Notes under the pieces: model-generated
Databases searched by the model: none
Told to the model about the DNA's origin: nothing
What the model saw: only the letters and a program-made list of their open reading frames with translations
Program-made: the position numbers and the translations under genes
Shown here: one piece after another, positions 6,794-35,241 of the stretch
Layout: the number at the start of each line of letters is the position of its first letter
Numbering within the stretch: position 1 is the stretch's first letter
IMG/VR virus record: IMGVR_UViG_3300047322_000336
Location: 1-48,345 of that record
Length of the DNA: 48,345 nucleotides
Source of the DNA: a virus
Reading direction: 5' to 3' (one strand)

Positions 6794-7285
6794 ATGGCTT
6801 GCCAAGAAGAAACCAAAACCATCAACGGGCGCCACTACTACGTTGTGCAGATAGCGCCAGAAAAGGCCGTCCTGCTGCAATTGCGCCTCACCAAAATTCT
6901 CGGCGGGGCAATCGGCGCCCTGGCTCCCGCCCTCGACAGCAAAGCCAGCCCTGATGGCGCCGGGCGCACCGCTGCCATGGCAGGTGCTGTTTCTGCGCTG
7001 TTTGCCAACGCAACCGAAGAAGAGGTTTTCGGCCTCATTCGCGACTTGGTATGCACTGCCAAGGTCGATGGCGAGCGCATCAGCATCAATGAACATTTCA
7101 CTGGCGAGTATCTGGCCGACATTTACAAGGTGTTCTTTTGGGTCATGGGGGTAAACTTCTCCAGTTTTTTCGGCGCTGGCGGTCTGGACGGGTTACTGGA
7201 CAAGTTCAGGCGAGTGATGCTAAGCGAGTTAGCATCGCAGCAGCCACCGCCCCAAACCTCAACCCCTTCCTCTGGCGCCCAATAA
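6794..7285 (+). CDS. Tail assembly chaperone, short form (G/E-like)
   Basis: The 163-residue product lies between tube and tape-measure genes, the position of the lambda gpG or P2 gpE chaperone. These proteins coat the tape measure before tube assembly. The C-terminal end is low-complexity (QQPPPQTSTPSSG). Near its end lies a T_TTT_TTC slippery heptamer at 7165-7171, which leads into a -1 frame open to 7434. This makes it the zero-frame product of a G/GT-type pair. Confidence 0.75.
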   Translation: MACQEETKTINGRHYYVVQIAPEKAVLLQLRLTKILGGAIGALAPALDSKASPDGAGRTAAMAGAVSALFANATEEEVFGLIRDLVCTAKVDGERISINEHFTGEYLADIYKVFFWVMGVNFSSFFGAGGLDGLLDKFRRVMLSELASQQPPPQTSTPSSGAQ

Positions 7286-7434
7286 ACGCCGGGTGCTGCA
7301 CCTTGAGGGAGTTGCAGGACGGAACCTACAACCTGGACGATTTGCTGGACTTTCACGAATTCCTAGACCTCAAGGAAGCGCTGAACGCCCATGACCGCAT
7401 AGCACAACAAGGGGCAAATTTACATGGCTTCTAA
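6794..7434 (+). CDS. Tail assembly chaperone, -1 frameshift fusion (GT-like)
   Basis: A -1 slip at 7165-7171 would join the first 126 residues to 87 residues of the -1 frame, giving a 213-residue protein. The extension contains TLRELQDGTYNLDDLLDFHEFLDLKEA. This acidic helical segment resembles the T domains that bind the tape measure in lambda and P2. The -1 frame overlaps the tape-measure start at 7424, the usual arrangement, and has no ribosome site of its own. Confidence 0.72.
7165..7171 (+). promoter_or_regulatory. Programmed -1 frameshift slippery site TTTTTTC
   Basis: In the chaperone frame the codons read AGT TTT TTC, so the heptamer is T_TTT_TTC and fits X_XXY_YYZ exactly. The -1 frame is open from here to 7434. 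Frameshifting at this place, between tail tube and tape-measure genes, is conserved in most long-tailed phages. Confidence 0.75.
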
Positions 7435-9178
7435 CTTCGTAGAGGAATTCATCGTCGGGCTGGGTTTCCAGTTCGAAGGCGAAGACGGCGAACGCTTCAA
7501 GAAGCAGACACAGCAAATATCGTCTGCCTTCATGGCGTTGAGCGCGGCGGCGGCGGCAGCTACTGCCGCACTGTTTGCCATGACAAACCAGCAAGCCGCG
7601 GTAGCTCGCAACTCTGATAACACCGCTAAGGTTATGGACACCAACGCCCAATCGCTGGGCAAATGGCGGTACGCGGCTGAACGGGCGGGCGTTGCGGGCG
7701 ACGAAGTGGTTAACACCCTACAAGGGCTGAAGACTGCCAGCCAAGAAGCCATGCGCAACGGCACCGGCCCGTTTCGAGCGTTCCAGGAACTGGGGGTAGA
7801 TTTTAAAGGTATCGCCGACGGCAGTGTTGACGTCACTGATGCGCTGGACAAGATCATCGAAACCGCGCAAGGCATGGACCGTGCCATGGCCCAATCAGGG
7901 TTGCGCGAATTGGGTATCAACCCGAAGTTGCTTGATACGCCAATTACCAAGCTGCGCAATTACATGGAGGAATTCAAAAAGTTTGGCGGCGTTACTGACG
8001 ACCTGACGAAGAAAAGCCATGACCTGGACGCGGCCATGGGCGACGCCGCCATGAAGTTTGACGGCGTGGAAAACATGTTGGCAGTACGCCTGATACCGAC
8101 CTACGAAAAGTTTTTCAAGGTTATTTCGGAAGGGTTGGAGTGGGTCCAAACCAAGGGCTTCCCCATCTTGGACGAAACCGTTGAGAAACTCGGCGGCTGG
8201 GATAAAGTGTTAGGCGGCTTGGCAATCGTAGCCATTCCGGCCGTCATTGCCTCGCTCGGCACTTTGATAAAACTGCTAGGCGCTGTTACAGGCGGTTTTG
8301 GGGGTGCAGCGGCAGCGGCGGGCTTGCTTGCGCGGGGCGGGGCATTGGCAGCAGTAGGTGTTGGCGGCTATGTGGCAGGTGAGCAGATTCGCGAAGCTCT
8401 GCCCCAAGACCTTGTTGACGAAATCGACGCCTTCACTCTTAAATCGCTGGCCTTTCTTGGTGTGCGCAGCGCCAAAAACCAATTAGCGGGGCAGGAAGGG
8501 CGCCAAGATGAAGCCAATCAGTTCATTGACATGATGGATGCGCAGTCCAAAAACCCCCAACCGGAGGACTTTAAAACGGCCAAACCTGCGCGTTCAGGCC
8601 GTGACTTACTGATGGAAGCCGTCATAGGAAGGGAGTCGGGCGGCAAAACGGGCCTGACTTCCAGCAAAGGAGCTATGGGGCTTGCGCAGCTTATGGAGCC
8701 AACCGCCCGTGAAACCGCCGCTGAACTGAATATCCCGTTCGACAAAGACAAGCTGTTAAATGACGCTTCATACAACCGCATTTTGGGCACTGCCTACATG
8801 AACAAAATGCTGCAGAAGTACGGCAGCGAAGAACTGGCGGTTGCAGCCTACAACGCCGGTCCAGGTTCGGTTGACGGCTGGCTCAAGGATAATGGCGACC
8901 CGCGCACTGGCCAAATCTCCATGCAAGATTGGGTCAAATCTATCCCGTTCAAGGAAACCCGCGACTACACCCAAAATGTTATGGCCGACCGGGCAGGTAT
9001 CGTACCGCCAGGGTTAGGAGTGCCGGGCGTAGGGGCAGCCGCATCGCAGCCTAGCAAAGTTATCCATAACGAGTTCCACGGGCTGCGGCAGACCGAAATT
9101 GAAGCCATCATGCGTGACGCGGAAAATGAGCAGCAAACGCTCATGTCCAGCGAAGCCCGCGACGCAATAGTGAGGTAG
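7424..9178 (+). CDS. Tape measure protein with lytic transglycosylase domain
   Basis: The product has 584 residues. The N-terminal two thirds are helical, with hydrophobic Ala/Gly-rich stretches (residues 265-315) typical of tape measures. From about residue 395 comes an SLT-type lysozyme domain: GRESGG with the likely catalytic Glu, SSKGAMGLAQLMEPTA, and VAAYNAGPGSV. It would cut peptidoglycan when the tail penetrates the wall. At roughly 1.5 angstrom per residue the tail would be rather short, well under 100 nm. The start overlaps the chaperone extension. Confidence 0.85.
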   Translation: MASNFVEEFIVGLGFQFEGEDGERFKKQTQQISSAFMALSAAAAAATAALFAMTNQQAAVARNSDNTAKVMDTNAQSLGKWRYAAERAGVAGDEVVNTLQGLKTASQEAMRNGTGPFRAFQELGVDFKGIADGSVDVTDALDKIIETAQGMDRAMAQSGLRELGINPKLLDTPITKLRNYMEEFKKFGGVTDDLTKKSHDLDAAMGDAAMKFDGVENMLAVRLIPTYEKFFKVISEGLEWVQTKGFPILDETVEKLGGWDKVLGGLAIVAIPAVIASLGTLIKLLGAVTGGFGGAAAAAGLLARGGALAAVGVGGYVAGEQIREALPQDLVDEIDAFTLKSLAFLGVRSAKNQLAGQEGRQDEANQFIDMMDAQSKNPQPEDFKTAKPARSGRDLLMEAVIGRESGGKTGLTSSKGAMGLAQLMEPTARETAAELNIPFDKDKLLNDASYNRILGTAYMNKMLQKYGSEELAVAAYNAGPGSVDGWLKDNGDPRTGQISMQDWVKSIPFKETRDYTQNVMADRAGIVPPGLGVPGVGAAASQPSKVIHNEFHGLRQTEIEAIMRDAENEQQTLMSSEARDAIVR

Positions 9179-15768: not shown

Positions 15769-15796
15769 AAAAAGCCCCTCTTAAGGGGCTTTTTTG
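15769..15796. terminator. Bidirectional intrinsic terminator
   Basis: AAAAAGCCCC, a 6-base loop and GGGGCTTTTTT form a stem flanked by A-run and T-run, so it works on both strands. It separates the converging late operon (+) and nucleotide-metabolism operon (-). Confidence 0.88.
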
Positions 15797-16221
15797 TTGC
15801 TCAACGTTAGCCATGTTCGACCAAAACGCTTCCAGACTGCTTCAGTGCTATCCCGGTCGGGCCACGTATCGCCAGTGACGATAACCTGCACCGGGCTGTC
15901 CAACAGATACGGCAGACATTTGATGCAGGGCGGGCGGGTAACCACAGCCGTGTGCAAGAAGGGGTAGCTGCCCTCCTTTGCAGCCTGGAGCAGCGCCCGA
16001 ACTTCGCTATGCATGGCGCAGCACGTAGCGCTTGCCGTGGTTAGCGTGTCCGCGCCGTCGTTGCAGTCGCACTTGCCGTCAAACCGGGCGTTGGCCGACC
16101 GCACCACGCGGTAGCCGTCTTCGTTGTAAAGGTAGGTCGCAACAGCGGCGCGGGGGCAACCCCCCGCAACCTCTGCGAACCTGTTAGCGTGCTCAAGCGC
16201 TTCTGACAGGTCAAGTTGCAT
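15781..16221 (-). CDS. Deoxycytidylate (dCMP) deaminase-like protein
   Basis: The 146-residue product has the cytidine/deoxycytidylate deaminase zinc site: H71-S-E73 within CAMHSEVRAL and C99-x-x-C102 in PPCIKC. Such enzymes turn dCMP into dUMP. The start ATG overlaps the upstream gene's stop (TGATG), with GAGGTGG before it. It is the last gene of the operon with the hydroxymethylase-like gene. It might act on dCMP, on a modified dCMP, or keep the dCMP/dUMP balance. Extra cysteines (CDC, residues 51-53) could bind a second zinc as in T4 Cd. Confidence 0.8.
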   Translation of the reverse strand: MQLDLSEALEHANRFAEVAGGCPRAAVATYLYNEDGYRVVRSANARFDGKCDCNDGADTLTTASATCCAMHSEVRALLQAAKEGSYPFLHTAVVTRPPCIKCLPYLLDSPVQVIVTGDTWPDRDSTEAVWKRFGRTWLTLSNKKAP

Positions 16222-17024
16222 CACGCCACCTCAATTCCCAACTCAAGACAGCGGGCAACAAAGGCTTTCCAGGCCGCATCCCATTCAGCGTTCCAGGCTG
16301 CCGGGCCGCAGGAGTTTGTATAGGCCTGGCAGTAGGTGCGCAAGATTTCAGCGGCTCGCGCTTCTTCGCCTTTAAAGACGTGCCCCGAAGCCGCGTAGTG
16401 GTAGTAGTCGCCTACCGGCACTCCCAGCTGCAACGCTACATGTTCCTGCAACCGGGCAAAGACAAAGATGTCTTGGCACACGGTTGTAGTGTAGTTGTTG
16501 GAGCGCATAACCCCGACAAGGTCCAGTTTGCCGCTACGCAGCCGGAAGTTATACGCATACGTGCAAAGGTACTCACACTTGGTATCGCCCGCCGCCATGG
16601 CTTCAGCAACCATTTGGTCAGTAGAACCCAACATCATGATGTTGGCGCGGCGGCTGCCTGGGTCGCGTTGCAGTTCACTGATAACAAAGCTCAGTTGTGA
16701 CTTGATGCGCGGGCCGTAGGCGGTAACGTGGTAGCCGTACTTTTCGTCGTCCAAGATGGTGGCGAACTTGGCGGCGTTGGGGTTGAGCGCCAGCATTTCC
16801 GGCGACACATGGACCTTGCCCGAAATGATCCATTCAGCCATAACACCGGAAAATTCCGTGCGGAAGCCCCGCGCCGGGTTGGCAATGCAGCGCTCGGTAG
16901 GGTGGCGCGGCGCCGGAAGTTGGAACGTATGGTTAATCAATTCCATGTCAGGCGCCAGAAACGCTTGCAACAGATTAGCGTGGTACACGTCTTCCCAATA
17001 TTTCGAAATGGGGGTGAGGTTCAT
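16221..17024 (-). CDS. Thymidylate-synthase-fold dCMP hydroxymethylase candidate
   Basis: The 267-residue product has the TS fold landmarks: KYGYHV...YG near 96-104, S124-R-R phosphate site, and nucleophile C154 in YLCTYAYNF, 11 residues before GKL as in TS and T4 gp42. MRSNN follows at 173-177, then D185, and finally GHVF with H215. The MRSN motif and D185 match T4 dCMP hydroxymethylase (MRSND ... ND), where Asp replaces the TS Asn that selects uracil. I therefore favour dCMP over dUMP as substrate. Methylation instead of hydroxymethylation cannot be excluded. It lies 1 base after the methyltransferase gene and is translationally coupled to the deaminase. Confidence 0.78.
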   Translation of the reverse strand: MNLTPISKYWEDVYHANLLQAFLAPDMELINHTFQLPAPRHPTERCIANPARGFRTEFSGVMAEWIISGKVHVSPEMLALNPNAAKFATILDDEKYGYHVTAYGPRIKSQLSFVISELQRDPGSRRANIMMLGSTDQMVAEAMAAGDTKCEYLCTYAYNFRLRSGKLDLVGVMRSNNYTTTVCQDIFVFARLQEHVALQLGVPVGDYYHYAASGHVFKGEEARAAEILRTYCQAYTNSCGPAAWNAEWDAAWKAFVARCLELGIEVA

Positions 17025-17025
17025 A

Positions 17026-17988
17026 TCAGACTTGCTCCAACCGAATGCCAAAGTGACTGAGGCTATGTATACCAGAAACGGCCATGAAACCGGCGTCTTG
17101 CGCCTCGGCTGCAACCATTTGTTCGCTGATGCACTGCCCCGCCTCAGTCATGTCATGCATACGCCACTCCAGGCGCAGGTTCGGGTACTGTTCAATGACC
17201 AGCAAAACACCACTTAGCTTCAACAGTGACTTGGCGCGCTGCAACAGAAACTGGCGTTCGGCAGGGCCTTTACAGTGCAGGATTTCGCTCAACAGTACAA
17301 CGTCATACGCCCCGGCGTGATTGGCAAAGAACTGGTCGTCCTTGAACGCGTCACCGGCTTTGATACCCATGCGGGCGAGCACAGCGCCGGAAGCCTTGGT
17401 AAGCCCTGGCTCACGGTCGTACAGCAAACCTTGCGCCGTCGGATTTGCGGCCAAAAAGCTGGCCAGGTAGCCACCGTTACCGCCGCAATAGTCAAAGAAC
17501 TTCAACGGATTTGGCACACTCAACTTGCCCTGTTCTGCGACCCACTGATGCATATCAGGGAGAAACGCAACCGAGTAGTTTTCCAACCCGCCGCGCAGTG
17601 CAACGTACTTGGCCGGGTCCGTCTCGAAAGCGCCGTCCAGCTGTTGCTGCATCATGCTGAACTCGTATTCCAACAGCGCTTGGCAGTCGATAACGCGCTT
17701 ACCCGCGCCGGTCAGATAGACTTGCGGGCCTTCCTGCTCCCGGTTGAGGTCAATACCTCGGTCTTCAACTTCGATGAGACCCAAGCGCGCCCAACAGGTA
17801 GCAACCGGGTTGGCCTCAGTCGGGTTGGATTCCCACACTTTCTGGCGAATGCCCTTGATGAGCGCGGCAAACATCCAGGCGCCTTCCATCACAGCGTAGA
17901 TTGACGGGCCGTCTTCGGTGCGTGGGAACAGGAACTGCATACCGTTGGAAAACAGGCCGGTGGTTTCTTGCATTGTCGATTCGGTCAT
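17026..17988 (-). CDS. SAM-dependent O-methyltransferase-like protein (COMT type)
   Basis: The product has 320 residues. The N-terminal third looks like the winged-helix dimerisation domain of plant-type O-methyltransferases (LGLIEVEDRG ... VYLTGAGKRV). The C-terminal Rossmann domain has motif I DYCGGNGG at 166-173, acidic D191 after strand 2, and YDVVLLSEILHCKGPAERQFLLQRAKSLLKLSG near 228-260, typical of the Methyltransf_2 family. It lacks the DPPY and PC motifs of DNA methyltransferases. The family acts on small hydroxylated molecules. Here it lies between the kinase fusion and the hydroxymethylase candidate, so a hydroxymethyl-nucleotide or hydroxymethyl-DNA substrate is a reasonable guess but not shown. 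Confidence 0.7.
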   Translation of the reverse strand: MTESTMQETTGLFSNGMQFLFPRTEDGPSIYAVMEGAWMFAALIKGIRQKVWESNPTEANPVATCWARLGLIEVEDRGIDLNREQEGPQVYLTGAGKRVIDCQALLEYEFSMMQQQLDGAFETDPAKYVALRGGLENYSVAFLPDMHQWVAEQGKLSVPNPLKFFDYCGGNGGYLASFLAANPTAQGLLYDREPGLTKASGAVLARMGIKAGDAFKDDQFFANHAGAYDVVLLSEILHCKGPAERQFLLQRAKSLLKLSGVLLVIEQYPNLRLEWRMHDMTEAGQCISEQMVAAEAQDAGFMAVSGIHSLSHFGIRLEQV

Positions 17989-17991
17989 GGC

Positions 17992-19356
17992 TTACCCCTT
18001 AACCTTGAGAACTGGGAGGACGTACTGTTGGATGTAATCGTCGATACTGTGATTGTCCAAGCTGGCCATTTCCCATTGTTGCATGTCAAACACTTCGACG
18101 TTTTGTGGTTGGCGTTCTGGCCCTGCTGCACCGCTGAACGCGTCACGGAAACCTTCGTACACGGCGCGGGCTTTGGCCTCATTCGGGCCATGAAGCTCTA
18201 CACGGGTGCCGCACATGTGTTGGTAGCCCGCAAACCATTGATCTTCATCGGCAGGGAGGGCGATGATGTTGAGTAGCGAGTCAACTTCAGTGTGGTCTTT
18301 CCAGACACGCACGTCGGAGGCGTTGTACTCGCCAGCGCGGTACACTTCAGAGTAGACAGGGTGCGACAACCAAGGCCGTTCTAGTACCACAACGCAGTTA
18401 TGCGCCAACGCTGCCGCGTATTGAATCGCGTGGTAGCGGTAGTCGTGCATGACGGCTTCCAGCTGCTTGCTCCAGGTCAGGTGAATAACCTGCCCGCTGA
18501 ACAACTCGGCAATGCGGGCAGCCAGGGTGCTTTTGCCGCTGGCGTCCGGGCCGTCAATGGTGATGAGGCCACAAAGGTTCTTTGGCCCTGCGGTTTGGCT
18601 GTTGGAGCCTGGCGCGGCGTAGTCCATCGAAACGTGGTTGGCGCTAATAGGCTGTTGCGCGGTTTCGTACACCGGTTCTTCGATGTAAGGCCCCTGCCCG
18701 CAAAGGTCGCCAAGGTACGGCGGTAGCCAGCCATCAGGTTTGGTGATTTCCAGCCCGTGCCCTGTGTCCAAACCCTGCTCTTTGAGCGCTTGGCTACGGC
18801 GCTGTTTAGCTGGGTCAATGTCCTTGTTCATGTTGGCAGCGTGAACGCGGCGCAGCGCTTCATCAATATCGAAACAGTGCATTTGAGCCGTGGCGCGGAA
18901 AGCGCGAATGGCTTCGTTGAGCGCCATGCCTTGGCCAATCAGGTCACCCCGGCGCACGCGCTCTTCATAGCTGTGCAGTACGGCAGCGTGGCGGGCGGCG
19001 CGCATGTTGTTGGCGTCTTGGGCCAGCATATGCGGCTTAACGTCGCGGTAGCCCAGTGCGATTGGGGCGGTAGTGATGTATTCGCCCAACCCTTGACGAT
19101 GAACGGTGCCGGTCAAGAAATAAAGTTCGTCAGCCAGGGCGTCCAAACAGTCGACAATTTCAAAGTCCTTAACCGCGTCCAGGTACTCTTGAGCTTCTTC
19201 CAGGTGGCATTCCATGCGAAACGCCGATTCAGGTTTGCTCAATTCACGCGGCTGGCCGTCGTAGGGCTGGCCGAACTTGTTGTGGAATTGGGTCAACATC
19301 TGGAGCAGCGTCATTTTGGCATACGGCGTGGTGTCATACATTTTAAACTTTGGCAT
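17992..19356 (-). CDS. MazG-like NTP pyrophosphohydrolase fused to dNMP kinase
   Basis: The product has 454 residues. The N-terminal 215 or so are an all-alpha MazG/phosphoribosyl-ATP-pyrophosphohydrolase-like domain: E49, E53, E54, E57 in ECHLEEAQEYL, then DCLDALADELY at 69-79, and a second conserved block VHAANMNK (171-178) with KPDGWLPPYL. From about 262 a P-loop kinase begins: IDGPDASGKST (Walker A 269-277) and ERPWLSHPVYSEVYRAG near 326-342, like dTMP/dNMP kinases. Hydrolysis of a dNTP to dNMP and rephosphorylation of a modified dNMP would bracket the hydroxymethylase step. The gene is 3 bases from the methyltransferase gene. Confidence 0.8.
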   Translation of the reverse strand: MPKFKMYDTTPYAKMTLLQMLTQFHNKFGQPYDGQPRELSKPESAFRMECHLEEAQEYLDAVKDFEIVDCLDALADELYFLTGTVHRQGLGEYITTAPIALGYRDVKPHMLAQDANNMRAARHAAVLHSYEERVRRGDLIGQGMALNEAIRAFRATAQMHCFDIDEALRRVHAANMNKDIDPAKQRRSQALKEQGLDTGHGLEITKPDGWLPPYLGDLCGQGPYIEEPVYETAQQPISANHVSMDYAAPGSNSQTAGPKNLCGLITIDGPDASGKSTLAARIAELFSGQVIHLTWSKQLEAVMHDYRYHAIQYAAALAHNCVVVLERPWLSHPVYSEVYRAGEYNASDVRVWKDHTEVDSLLNIIALPADEDQWFAGYQHMCGTRVELHGPNEAKARAVYEGFRDAFSGAAGPERQPQNVEVFDMQQWEMASLDNHSIDDYIQQYVLPVLKVKG

Positions 19357-33892: not shown

Positions 33893-34690
33893 ATGAAACT
33901 TGTCTCCCCCGCCCTGCTCATTGAAGCATTGGCTGCCCGCTGGAACTCTGACGATAAGCCAGAAATGGAAATCGTCGCAGACTTCATCACCGACTACGCC
34001 AAAGACAGCGGCTTTGACATCCCGTTGAAAATCGTGTTGGCGCACTACGTCGGTGAGGCCGACTTGTTCAACCCCCAGGCCGAGTTGCCGTTGACGCCGG
34101 GCCAGTACAGTGATTTGTACAGTCAAGAGTACGACTACAAGGCCCACGGCGACCCTACTCCGCGTGATTGCCATTTCCCAACTAACGAACTCGGCTCTGA
34201 TGCAATCCCGGCTGCCCCTACCCGCCCTGCTGCGTTCAACCGCAAGCAAATTGACGACATGATGCAGTCCGATTGGGTGCATAGCAGTGAAGGTGAAATG
34301 CACTCCTTTGGCCCGGCTGGCAATGGCGATGTTGCAGCGCTGCTAGTCGGTGAGCTAAGGGGCGGCAGGCTGTTTGTCCACACGACCTACAAGGGCAAAG
34401 CTGCCGAAGCTGCTGCGCGTAAGTACCTGTTTCGCTTAACCCGCCCCACCCCAAGGGAACCAATTGGCGGCGAGCACGGTGACAGCTCAAAACCCGCTAA
34501 GCCGTTTTTGTCGCCAACAGGCCGCTTCCCTACGCAACCTGAAATGCAAGAACTTCCAGGGCGCCGTATGGCAGCTAAGTACACCACCCTACCACTGCAA
34601 CTTAAGTGCGATGGTTGCGGCAAGATGTTCCACCCCACCCTGACAGCTGATGTCCTTTGCTTCGACTGCAAAGAAGCGAATTCGCTATGA
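33893..34690 (+). CDS. Hypothetical protein with C-terminal zinc ribbon
   Basis: The product has 265 residues from ATG 33893 (AGAGGT upstream). The N-terminal 45 are helical; a middle domain contains GRLFVHTTYKGKAAEAAARKYL. The end has CDGCGKMFHPTLTADVLCFDC, a CxxC...CxxC zinc ribbon. Its stop overlaps the DenV-like start, so the two are co-translated and may share a DNA-related role. Family not recognised. Confidence 0.65.
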   Translation: MKLVSPALLIEALAARWNSDDKPEMEIVADFITDYAKDSGFDIPLKIVLAHYVGEADLFNPQAELPLTPGQYSDLYSQEYDYKAHGDPTPRDCHFPTNELGSDAIPAAPTRPAAFNRKQIDDMMQSDWVHSSEGEMHSFGPAGNGDVAALLVGELRGGRLFVHTTYKGKAAEAAARKYLFRLTRPTPREPIGGEHGDSSKPAKPFLSPTGRFPTQPEMQELPGRRMAAKYTTLPLQLKCDGCGKMFHPTLTADVLCFDCKEANSL

Positions 34691-35241
34691 CCCGCATAAA
34701 CACCATTGACGTTGACCTACTCCCTATGCCCTGGCTTGTTGCAGAGTACCGTGAATTGCCGCGTATCCTGAACCGTGTTGCGGCGGGCAAGCCCTTCCCG
34801 CTCATTCCCGTAAACTACTGCATGGGCACCGGCCACGTTAGCTTCTTCGGCAACAAACTGAACTGGCTGTACGCACGTCATGAAGCGTTGCGCGCTGAAC
34901 TTAAGAAGCGCGCTGAACTTAAGAAGCGCGCTGAACTTAAGAAGCGCGGCGGCAAGGCTGATATGGACTGCAACGCAGCCTACAGGCTTTGTATGGAGCG
35001 CTACCCTAAGTTCTGCAAAAGCCGTTGGGTGCCAGACCTGCGCGACCACGAAACCAACCTCTGCCGCCTTGTAGAAAGCTGGGCACGGGCCAAGCGTATG
35101 GACAACGCGGGCCTAGAGGCTTGGCTGACGAAGGCATTGCAGCGTCACATGATGCCCAAGTTTGAATACAAGTTGACGCCGTTGGAGAACGATCCAGTGG
35201 CCCGAACCCTTAACTTTACAGTGGATATACAGCCATGCTAA
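34687..35241 (+). CDS. denV: DenV-like pyrimidine dimer DNA glycosylase
   Basis: The start TRIN...AEYRELPR aligns directly with T4 endonuclease V: Thr2 (the Schiff-base N-terminus after Met removal), Arg3, E23 and R26 are at the same positions. GTGHVSFFGNKL matches the T4 GAGHVTFFYDKL segment. The enzyme cuts out UV-made pyrimidine dimers. The 184-residue product is longer than T4 DenV (138), partly because of three exact AELKKR repeats after residue 68 and a longer C-terminus with Cys residues. Confidence 0.88.
   Translation: MTRINTIDVDLLPMPWLVAEYRELPRILNRVAAGKPFPLIPVNYCMGTGHVSFFGNKLNWLYARHEALRAELKKRAELKKRAELKKRGGKADMDCNAAYRLCMERYPKFCKSRWVPDLRDHETNLCRLVESWARAKRMDNAGLEAWLTKALQRHMMPKFEYKLTPLENDPVARTLNFTVDIQPC
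34893..34946. repeat. Three tandem 18-bp units inside denV-like gene
   Basis: The 18-bp unit starting CGCTGAACTTAAG is present three times without change and in frame, giving three AELKKR hexapeptides that lengthen one helix. Absence of any mismatch suggests recent expansion. Confidence 0.93.

Follow-up and report, generated by a model that had tools for sequence, protein, structure and literature searches.

Phages are already known to cap hydroxymethyl- and hydroxycytosines with glucose, arabinose or carbamoyl groups. In RB69-type phages, the DNA contains arabinosylated 5-hydroxy-dC, for which a synthase of the thymidylate synthase (TS) superfamily supplies 5-hydroxy-dCMP at the mononucleotide level (PMC13390438, 2026). 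Within this superfamily, an Asp at the position of E. coli TS residue 177 selects dCMP (PMC8670742, PMC5175136). Enzymes with A/T-only sites are the only ones that cut the DNA of Stenotrophomonas phage AXL3, which resists those with G/C in their sites (PMC7504290).

We analyzed a 48,345-nucleotide stretch of DNA from one uncultured virus (IMG/VR record IMGVR_UViG_3300047322_000336, positions 1 to 48,345), hereafter called the window. Its minus strand carries a run of four genes encoding, in order, a MazG-kinase fusion, a methyltransferase, a TS homologue and a deaminase. Based on sequence, fold and gene context, we propose, with confidence slightly better than even, that this cassette makes a C5-methoxy cytosine nucleotide for phage DNA, proceeding from dCMP to 5-hydroxy-dCMP, then to 5-methoxy-dCMP and finally to the triphosphate. 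The features concerned are as follows.

17992-19356, minus strand: 454-aa fusion of a MazG-like (PRA-PH) pyrophosphohydrolase and a P-loop (deoxy)nucleotide kinase; opens the cassette.
17026-17988, minus strand: COMT/Methyltransf_2-type SAM methyltransferase, ORF of 320 aa with an ATG start; proposed 5-hydroxy-dCMP O-methyltransferase.
17275-17277, minus strand: codon of methyltransferase His238, aligned with the LH-motif His of the family; proposed general base.
16221-17024, minus strand: TS-superfamily dCMP enzyme, 267 aa; proposed flavin-dependent dCMP 5-hydroxylase (AfhB / 5-hodCMP synthase type).
16839-16841, minus strand: codon of Met62 in the TS homologue, at the position of E. coli TS Glu58 (alignment).
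16563-16565, minus strand: codon of Cys154 in the TS homologue, the catalytic Cys (alignment and sequence).
16494-16496, minus strand: codon of Asn177 in the TS homologue, at the position of E. coli TS Asp169, a folate position (alignment and sequence).
16470-16472, minus strand: codon of Asp185 in the TS homologue, at the position of E. coli TS Asn177, which governs cytosine over uracil (alignment and sequence).
15781-16224, minus strand: dCMP-deaminase-like zinc deaminase, 147 aa, GTG start (PF00383, PHROG).

The ORF coordinates place the methyltransferase 3 bases after the end of the kinase fusion and 1 base before the start of the TS homologue, the same tight spacing that the first-pass annotation had reported, and the deaminase ORF shares 4 bases with that of the TS homologue. 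The fusion protein matched Pfam PF01503 over residues 22-90 (E = 1.6e-7) and gave weak P-loop matches to cytidylate and thymidylate kinases, while the deaminase matched Pfam PF00383 (E = 1.1e-6) and the PHROG dCMP deaminase family (E = 1.2e-10). A search of IMG/VR identified four further uncultured phages with a relative of the methyltransferase, which was 77% identical to that of the window in L002, 61% in L003 and 36% in L004, and more distant in G004, a contig reached via its U32 gene (L040). The kinase fusion is conserved in all four and the deaminase is likewise conserved in relatives. Alignment showed ~130 more residues in the window-type fusion than in its L004 counterpart (7036-8004), mostly owing to an insert inside the MazG part. 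No glycosyltransferase was found among the four cassette genes or among the window proteins scanned, which represent part of the ORFs. Elsewhere in the window, a Pyr_excise domain (pyrimidine-dimer DNA glycosylase) was detected at 34657-35241 on the plus strand (E = 1e-10).

The methyltransferase matched Pfam PF00891 (Methyltransf_2) with 23.0 bits, a narrow margin over the cut-off of 22.3, together with further weak matches to general SAM-methyltransferase models, and its L004 relative scored 14.4 bits with PF00891, below that cut-off. An AlphaFold model built from four sequences (mean pLDDT 65.5) contained a mostly confident Rossmann C-terminal domain. In Foldseek and VIA-align comparisons this model matched Methyltransf_2 O-methyltransferases over nearly its whole length, including MfnG (7ux6; Z 21.4, rmsd 4.0, 280 residues) and 3mcz (Z 21.1, rmsd 4.5, 275 residues). 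These results bear out the earlier assignment to the COMT/Methyltransf_2 class, including its Rossmann C-terminus. The winged-helix-like N-terminus described at the same time can be kept only tentatively because residues 1-60 have a pLDDT < 50, though the alignments to 7ux6 and 4a6d run over nearly the full length.

The SAM-binding glycine-rich motif (GGNGGY) lies in the Rossmann domain, and a sequence profile aligned His238 with the LH motif of TnmH, MfnG and 3mcz. The LH-motif His is the catalytic base in COMT. His238 is present in all five methyltransferases, which also share the SAM motif, the surrounding SE(I/V)LH, an EQ pair and the motif N(L/F)RL(E/D)WRM..MT..G.C; the arginines of the last may hold the nucleotide phosphate. 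The dN/dS ratio against the nearest relative was ~0.15 (0.155/1.03), indicating that the gene is under purifying selection and, together with the presence of relatives in the same neighborhood, that it is not a chance ORF.

No Pfam DNA methyltransferase model matched the protein encoded at 17026-17988, in line with the earlier remark that it lacks DNA-methyltransferase features. Assignment as a DNA or tRNA methyltransferase was rejected on this basis, the PHROGs tRNA methyltransferase family giving only a weak match (E = 0.07). A related alternative, which survives best of those considered and which we regard as unlikely, is that 5-hydroxy-dCMP is indeed made and the methyltransferase acts on DNA after incorporation, or on N4 or another atom. 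COMT-type folds also carry out N- and C-methylation and, in the case of RdmB, hydroxylation, and the fold matches obtained here included N-methyltransferases (for example 8zn0 and 4d7k), RdmB and TamK. Other fold matches act on phenolic hydroxyls, which, together with the kept family His, speaks for the proposed O-methylation. In T4, capping takes place on DNA. It does so in RB69 too (PMC13390438), and the MetaGPA carbamoyltransferase acts on both DNA and the triphosphate (PMC8670742). Methylation of DNA or of another atom nevertheless fits poorly with a gene that sits between the kinase and the dCMP enzyme, among nucleotide-level enzymes, and with a fold of small-molecule type in which no DNA-binding domain was recognised. 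Methylation of 5-hydroxy-dCMP at the C5 hydroxyl is the reading that we carry forward, and gene context, fold and chemistry make this nucleotide probably the methyl acceptor.

The first-pass annotation had taken the neighboring TS homologue for a hydroxymethylase and the acceptor for a 5-hydroxymethyl pyrimidine, yielding a methoxymethyl base. A folate-dependent dCMP hydroxymethylase working with the methyltransferase to give 5-methoxymethyl-dC now appears quite improbable. It would be compatible with the catalytic Cys154 and with Asp185 at E. coli position 177, both of which are kept along with the nucleotide-binding Arg, Ser and His residues, and similar phage genes are automatically annotated as hydroxymethylases. 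To place the homologue, we aligned it with six folate-type or outgroup enzymes (T4 gp42, E. coli ThyA, AXL3, PW916, nattely and VAP7) and with an RB69-side set (RB69, PSTRCR_121, VR5, Atu_ph04, PAU, RHph_N34 and OLIVR5). Among the positions invariant in 6/6 folate-type or outgroup enzymes, the RB69-side set loses exactly Glu58, Asp169 and Gly173 (E. coli numbering), which in the window, L002, L003 and G004 are replaced by Met, Asn and Thr, respectively. Trp80, present in four of the six, is also replaced in the window homologue. All ten enzymes of the window/RB69 group share R97, E143, Y144 and N169, and G004 has the same states. According to the title of PDB entry 1bjg, a fold match, a D169N thymidylate synthase mutant does not promote cofactor ring opening. 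The missing Glu58, Asp169, Gly173 and Trp80 thus argue against a folate-dependent hydroxymethylase.

Searches of solved structures with phmmer pointed the same way, ranking 9iqu and 9iqc first (75 bits, E = 5e-20). These near-copies of the RB69-type enzyme are titled "phage HY126 dCMP hydroxylase-AfhB with sustrate dCMP" and "Monooxygenase dependent on riboflavin with dCMP and FAD", respectively. MilA, a CMP hydroxymethylase, was the second-best solved relative (60 bits, E = 2e-15), a point in favor of the methoxymethyl route, whereas T4 hydroxymethylase scored 12 bits (E = 0.69), a point against it. Identity between the window homologue and the RB69, PAU and Pootjesviridae members is low, at 25-29%. 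In the tree, the window TS enzymes grouped with the RB69-type side with support of 94/97 (97/97 with G004), and AU tests rejected their grouping with the T4, AXL3, PW916 and nattely enzymes (p = 0.0025 and 0.003). When positions 58, 80, 169 and 173 were left out, the window-RB69 split appeared in only 18% of the bootstrap trees, so the hydroxylase argument rests mainly on those residues and on the nearest-relative scores. The Foldseek ranking adds weak support, the AlphaFold model of the TS homologue being poor (pLDDT 47.8). Taken together, the residues and nearest relatives suggest that the TS homologue is probably a flavin-dependent dCMP 5-hydroxylase rather than a T4-type hydroxymethylase.

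In the RB69-side set, the TS homologues of PAU (L021 4538-5731), RHph_N34 (L022 4711-5733) and OLIVR5 (L025 4809-5816) carry E58F and D169N, and directly downstream of them lie uncharacterised proteins of 335-397 aa that could be further capping enzymes.

Both the hydroxymethylase reading of the neighbor and the methoxymethyl product are therefore probably wrong, and 5-methoxy-dC is the likelier product because the TS homologue lacks the folate residues and is closest to flavin-dependent dCMP hydroxylases. This changes what a mass measurement would look for. 5-Methoxy-dC and 5-hydroxymethyl-dC are isomers with the same exact mass (257.1012), while methoxymethyl-dC has a mass of 271.1168. A search for a nucleoside 14 Da above hydroxymethyl-dC, as the first-pass annotation had advised, would consequently miss 5-methoxy-dC, and surveys based on mass only could already have filed DNA containing it as hydroxymethylcytosine.

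The relatives provided a view of the cassette across five phages in all, whose IMG/VR records are possibly fragments. The order kinase-methyltransferase-TS homologue-deaminase is identical in the window, L002, L003 and G004, and in L004 the contiguous order is kinase-methyltransferase-deaminase-U32, with the contig ending ~300 bases past the U32 gene. Relatives of the methyltransferase were absent from 50,697 phage records searched by tblastn, none was confirmed in a collection of genomes from 84,980 species with the patterns used, and other kinase/MazG loci (L032-L038) contained no methyltransferase of this COMT-type family. The retention of cassette order among relatives upholds the previously suggested tie to a modified-pyrimidine nucleotide pathway. 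It also weighs against the idea that the methyltransferase has no part in base modification, sits in the operon merely to be co-expressed, and acts on some other metabolite, such as a cofactor or a molecule of host defence. Most substrates of this broad family are natural products, but the methyltransferase lies between kinase and TS homologue in four phages, down to ~30-36% identity, and in the fifth it adjoins kinase and deaminase, which makes such a role distinctly doubtful. Finally, a COMT-fold protein that is not a methyltransferase and performs another reaction, such as nucleotide hydroxylation, as the fold matches to RdmB and TamK might hint, is very improbable given that the SAM motif and LH-motif His are kept in all members and that the cassette already holds a hydroxylase candidate.

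A U32-family protein is encoded in two of the five methyltransferase phages (L004 9415-10524 and L040 2-688, the latter being the U32 gene of G004), and both proteins are ~40% identical to one encoded close to the TS homologue of RB69-type phages, which ties the phages carrying the methyltransferase cassette to the RB69-type system. The idea that U32 replaces the TS homologue in L004 was dropped, as that contig ends so soon after U32 and G004 has both genes. U32 as an obligatory partner was not supported either, VR5 having an RB69-type enzyme and no U32 match.

In the 5-methoxy-dCMP pathway that we favor, the MazG domain would first remove host dCTP, giving dCMP, as its family and the precedents of T4 and MetaGPA suggest. 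The TS-like protein would then bind dCMP via its catalytic Cys and the Asp at E. coli position 177 and, using flavin instead of folate, hydroxylate C5 to give 5-hydroxy-dCMP, a step suggested by its residues and nearest relatives. The hydroxyl of 5-hydroxypyrimidines is acidic and phenol-like, and phenols are typical substrates of the Methyltransf_2-type family. The COMT-type enzyme is predicted to transfer a methyl group from SAM to this hydroxyl, with His238 as base, producing 5-methoxy-dCMP. The kinase domain and then host kinases would convert this product to the triphosphate, which the phage polymerase may use instead of dCTP, and the deaminase, judging from its family, would turn dCMP into dUMP for dTMP supply. 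Uncapped 5-hydroxycytosine is easily oxidised and mispairs; methyl would take the role of the RB69-type arabinose in capping its hydroxyl. The cassette product could also feed a further tailoring step encoded elsewhere in the genome.

In the literature searched (subscription papers and most preprints lay outside it), we found no report of natural 5-methoxycytosine or of a methyl cap, and the 5-methoxycytidine literature appears to deal with RNA that is synthetic or therapeutic, or with the sensing of viral RNA. We give an even chance to the full proposition that 5-methoxycytosine stands in for cytosine in the phage DNA and is built as a nucleotide by a dCMP hydroxylase using flavin and an O-methyltransferase dedicated to 5-hydroxy-dCMP, which would constitute both a new base and a new activity. 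If true, it would add a natural DNA base, present the recently described 5-hydroxycytosine route as a platform whose cap (sugar or methyl) can be swapped, methyl being the smallest, offer a candidate enzyme for the synthesis of methoxy-pyrimidine nucleotides, and make testable how restriction and type IV systems handle a small, uncharged C5 ether.

Compared with described systems, the clusters of Stenotrophomonas phage AXL3 and Pseudoxanthomonas phage PW916 resemble the window in uniting a methyltransferase, MazG, a kinase, an Asp177 TS homologue and a deaminase, but their methyltransferase is of the Methyltransf_23 family and their TS homologue keeps Glu58, Asp169 and Gly173. The AXL3 methyltransferase was rejected as an orthologue, having only a short BLASTP match and a weak profile match that reflects the common SAM fold only. 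These Methyltransf_23 clusters with folate-residue-keeping TS homologues (AXL3, L015 1569-4711; PW916, L013 934-4098), rather than the window, are the better candidates for methoxymethyl-dC. The MetaGPA 5-hydroxymethylcytosine carbamoyltransferase system (PMC8670742) similarly sets a small capping enzyme next to an Asp177 TS homologue and to PRA-PH and deaminase domains, although its cap is a carbamoyl on hydroxymethyl and the capping enzyme belongs to another family. With the T4 pathway (gp42, dCTPase, kinase and glucosyltransferases) the cassette would share dCTP removal, dCMP modification, phosphorylation and a C5-linked hydroxyl cap, and differs in a TS homologue without the folate residues and in having a methyltransferase as the capping enzyme. 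In tRNA, TrmR converts 5-hydroxyuridine to 5-methoxyuridine, so that pyrimidine C5 hydroxylation is likewise followed by SAM-dependent O-methylation, there on RNA uridine and not on deoxycytidine nucleotides. The 5-hydroxycytosine pathway of RB69/Mosigvirus, HY126 and LC53-type phages, which combines 5-hodCMP synthase/AfhB with arabinosyltransferases, has a TS-superfamily dCMP enzyme that has lost the same folate positions, at only ~25% identity to the window homologue. In RB69 a kinase gene lies nearby and a U32-family protein occurs, as in two relatives of the window phage; the cap is arabinose in those phages, whereas in the window it is predicted to be methyl from SAM.
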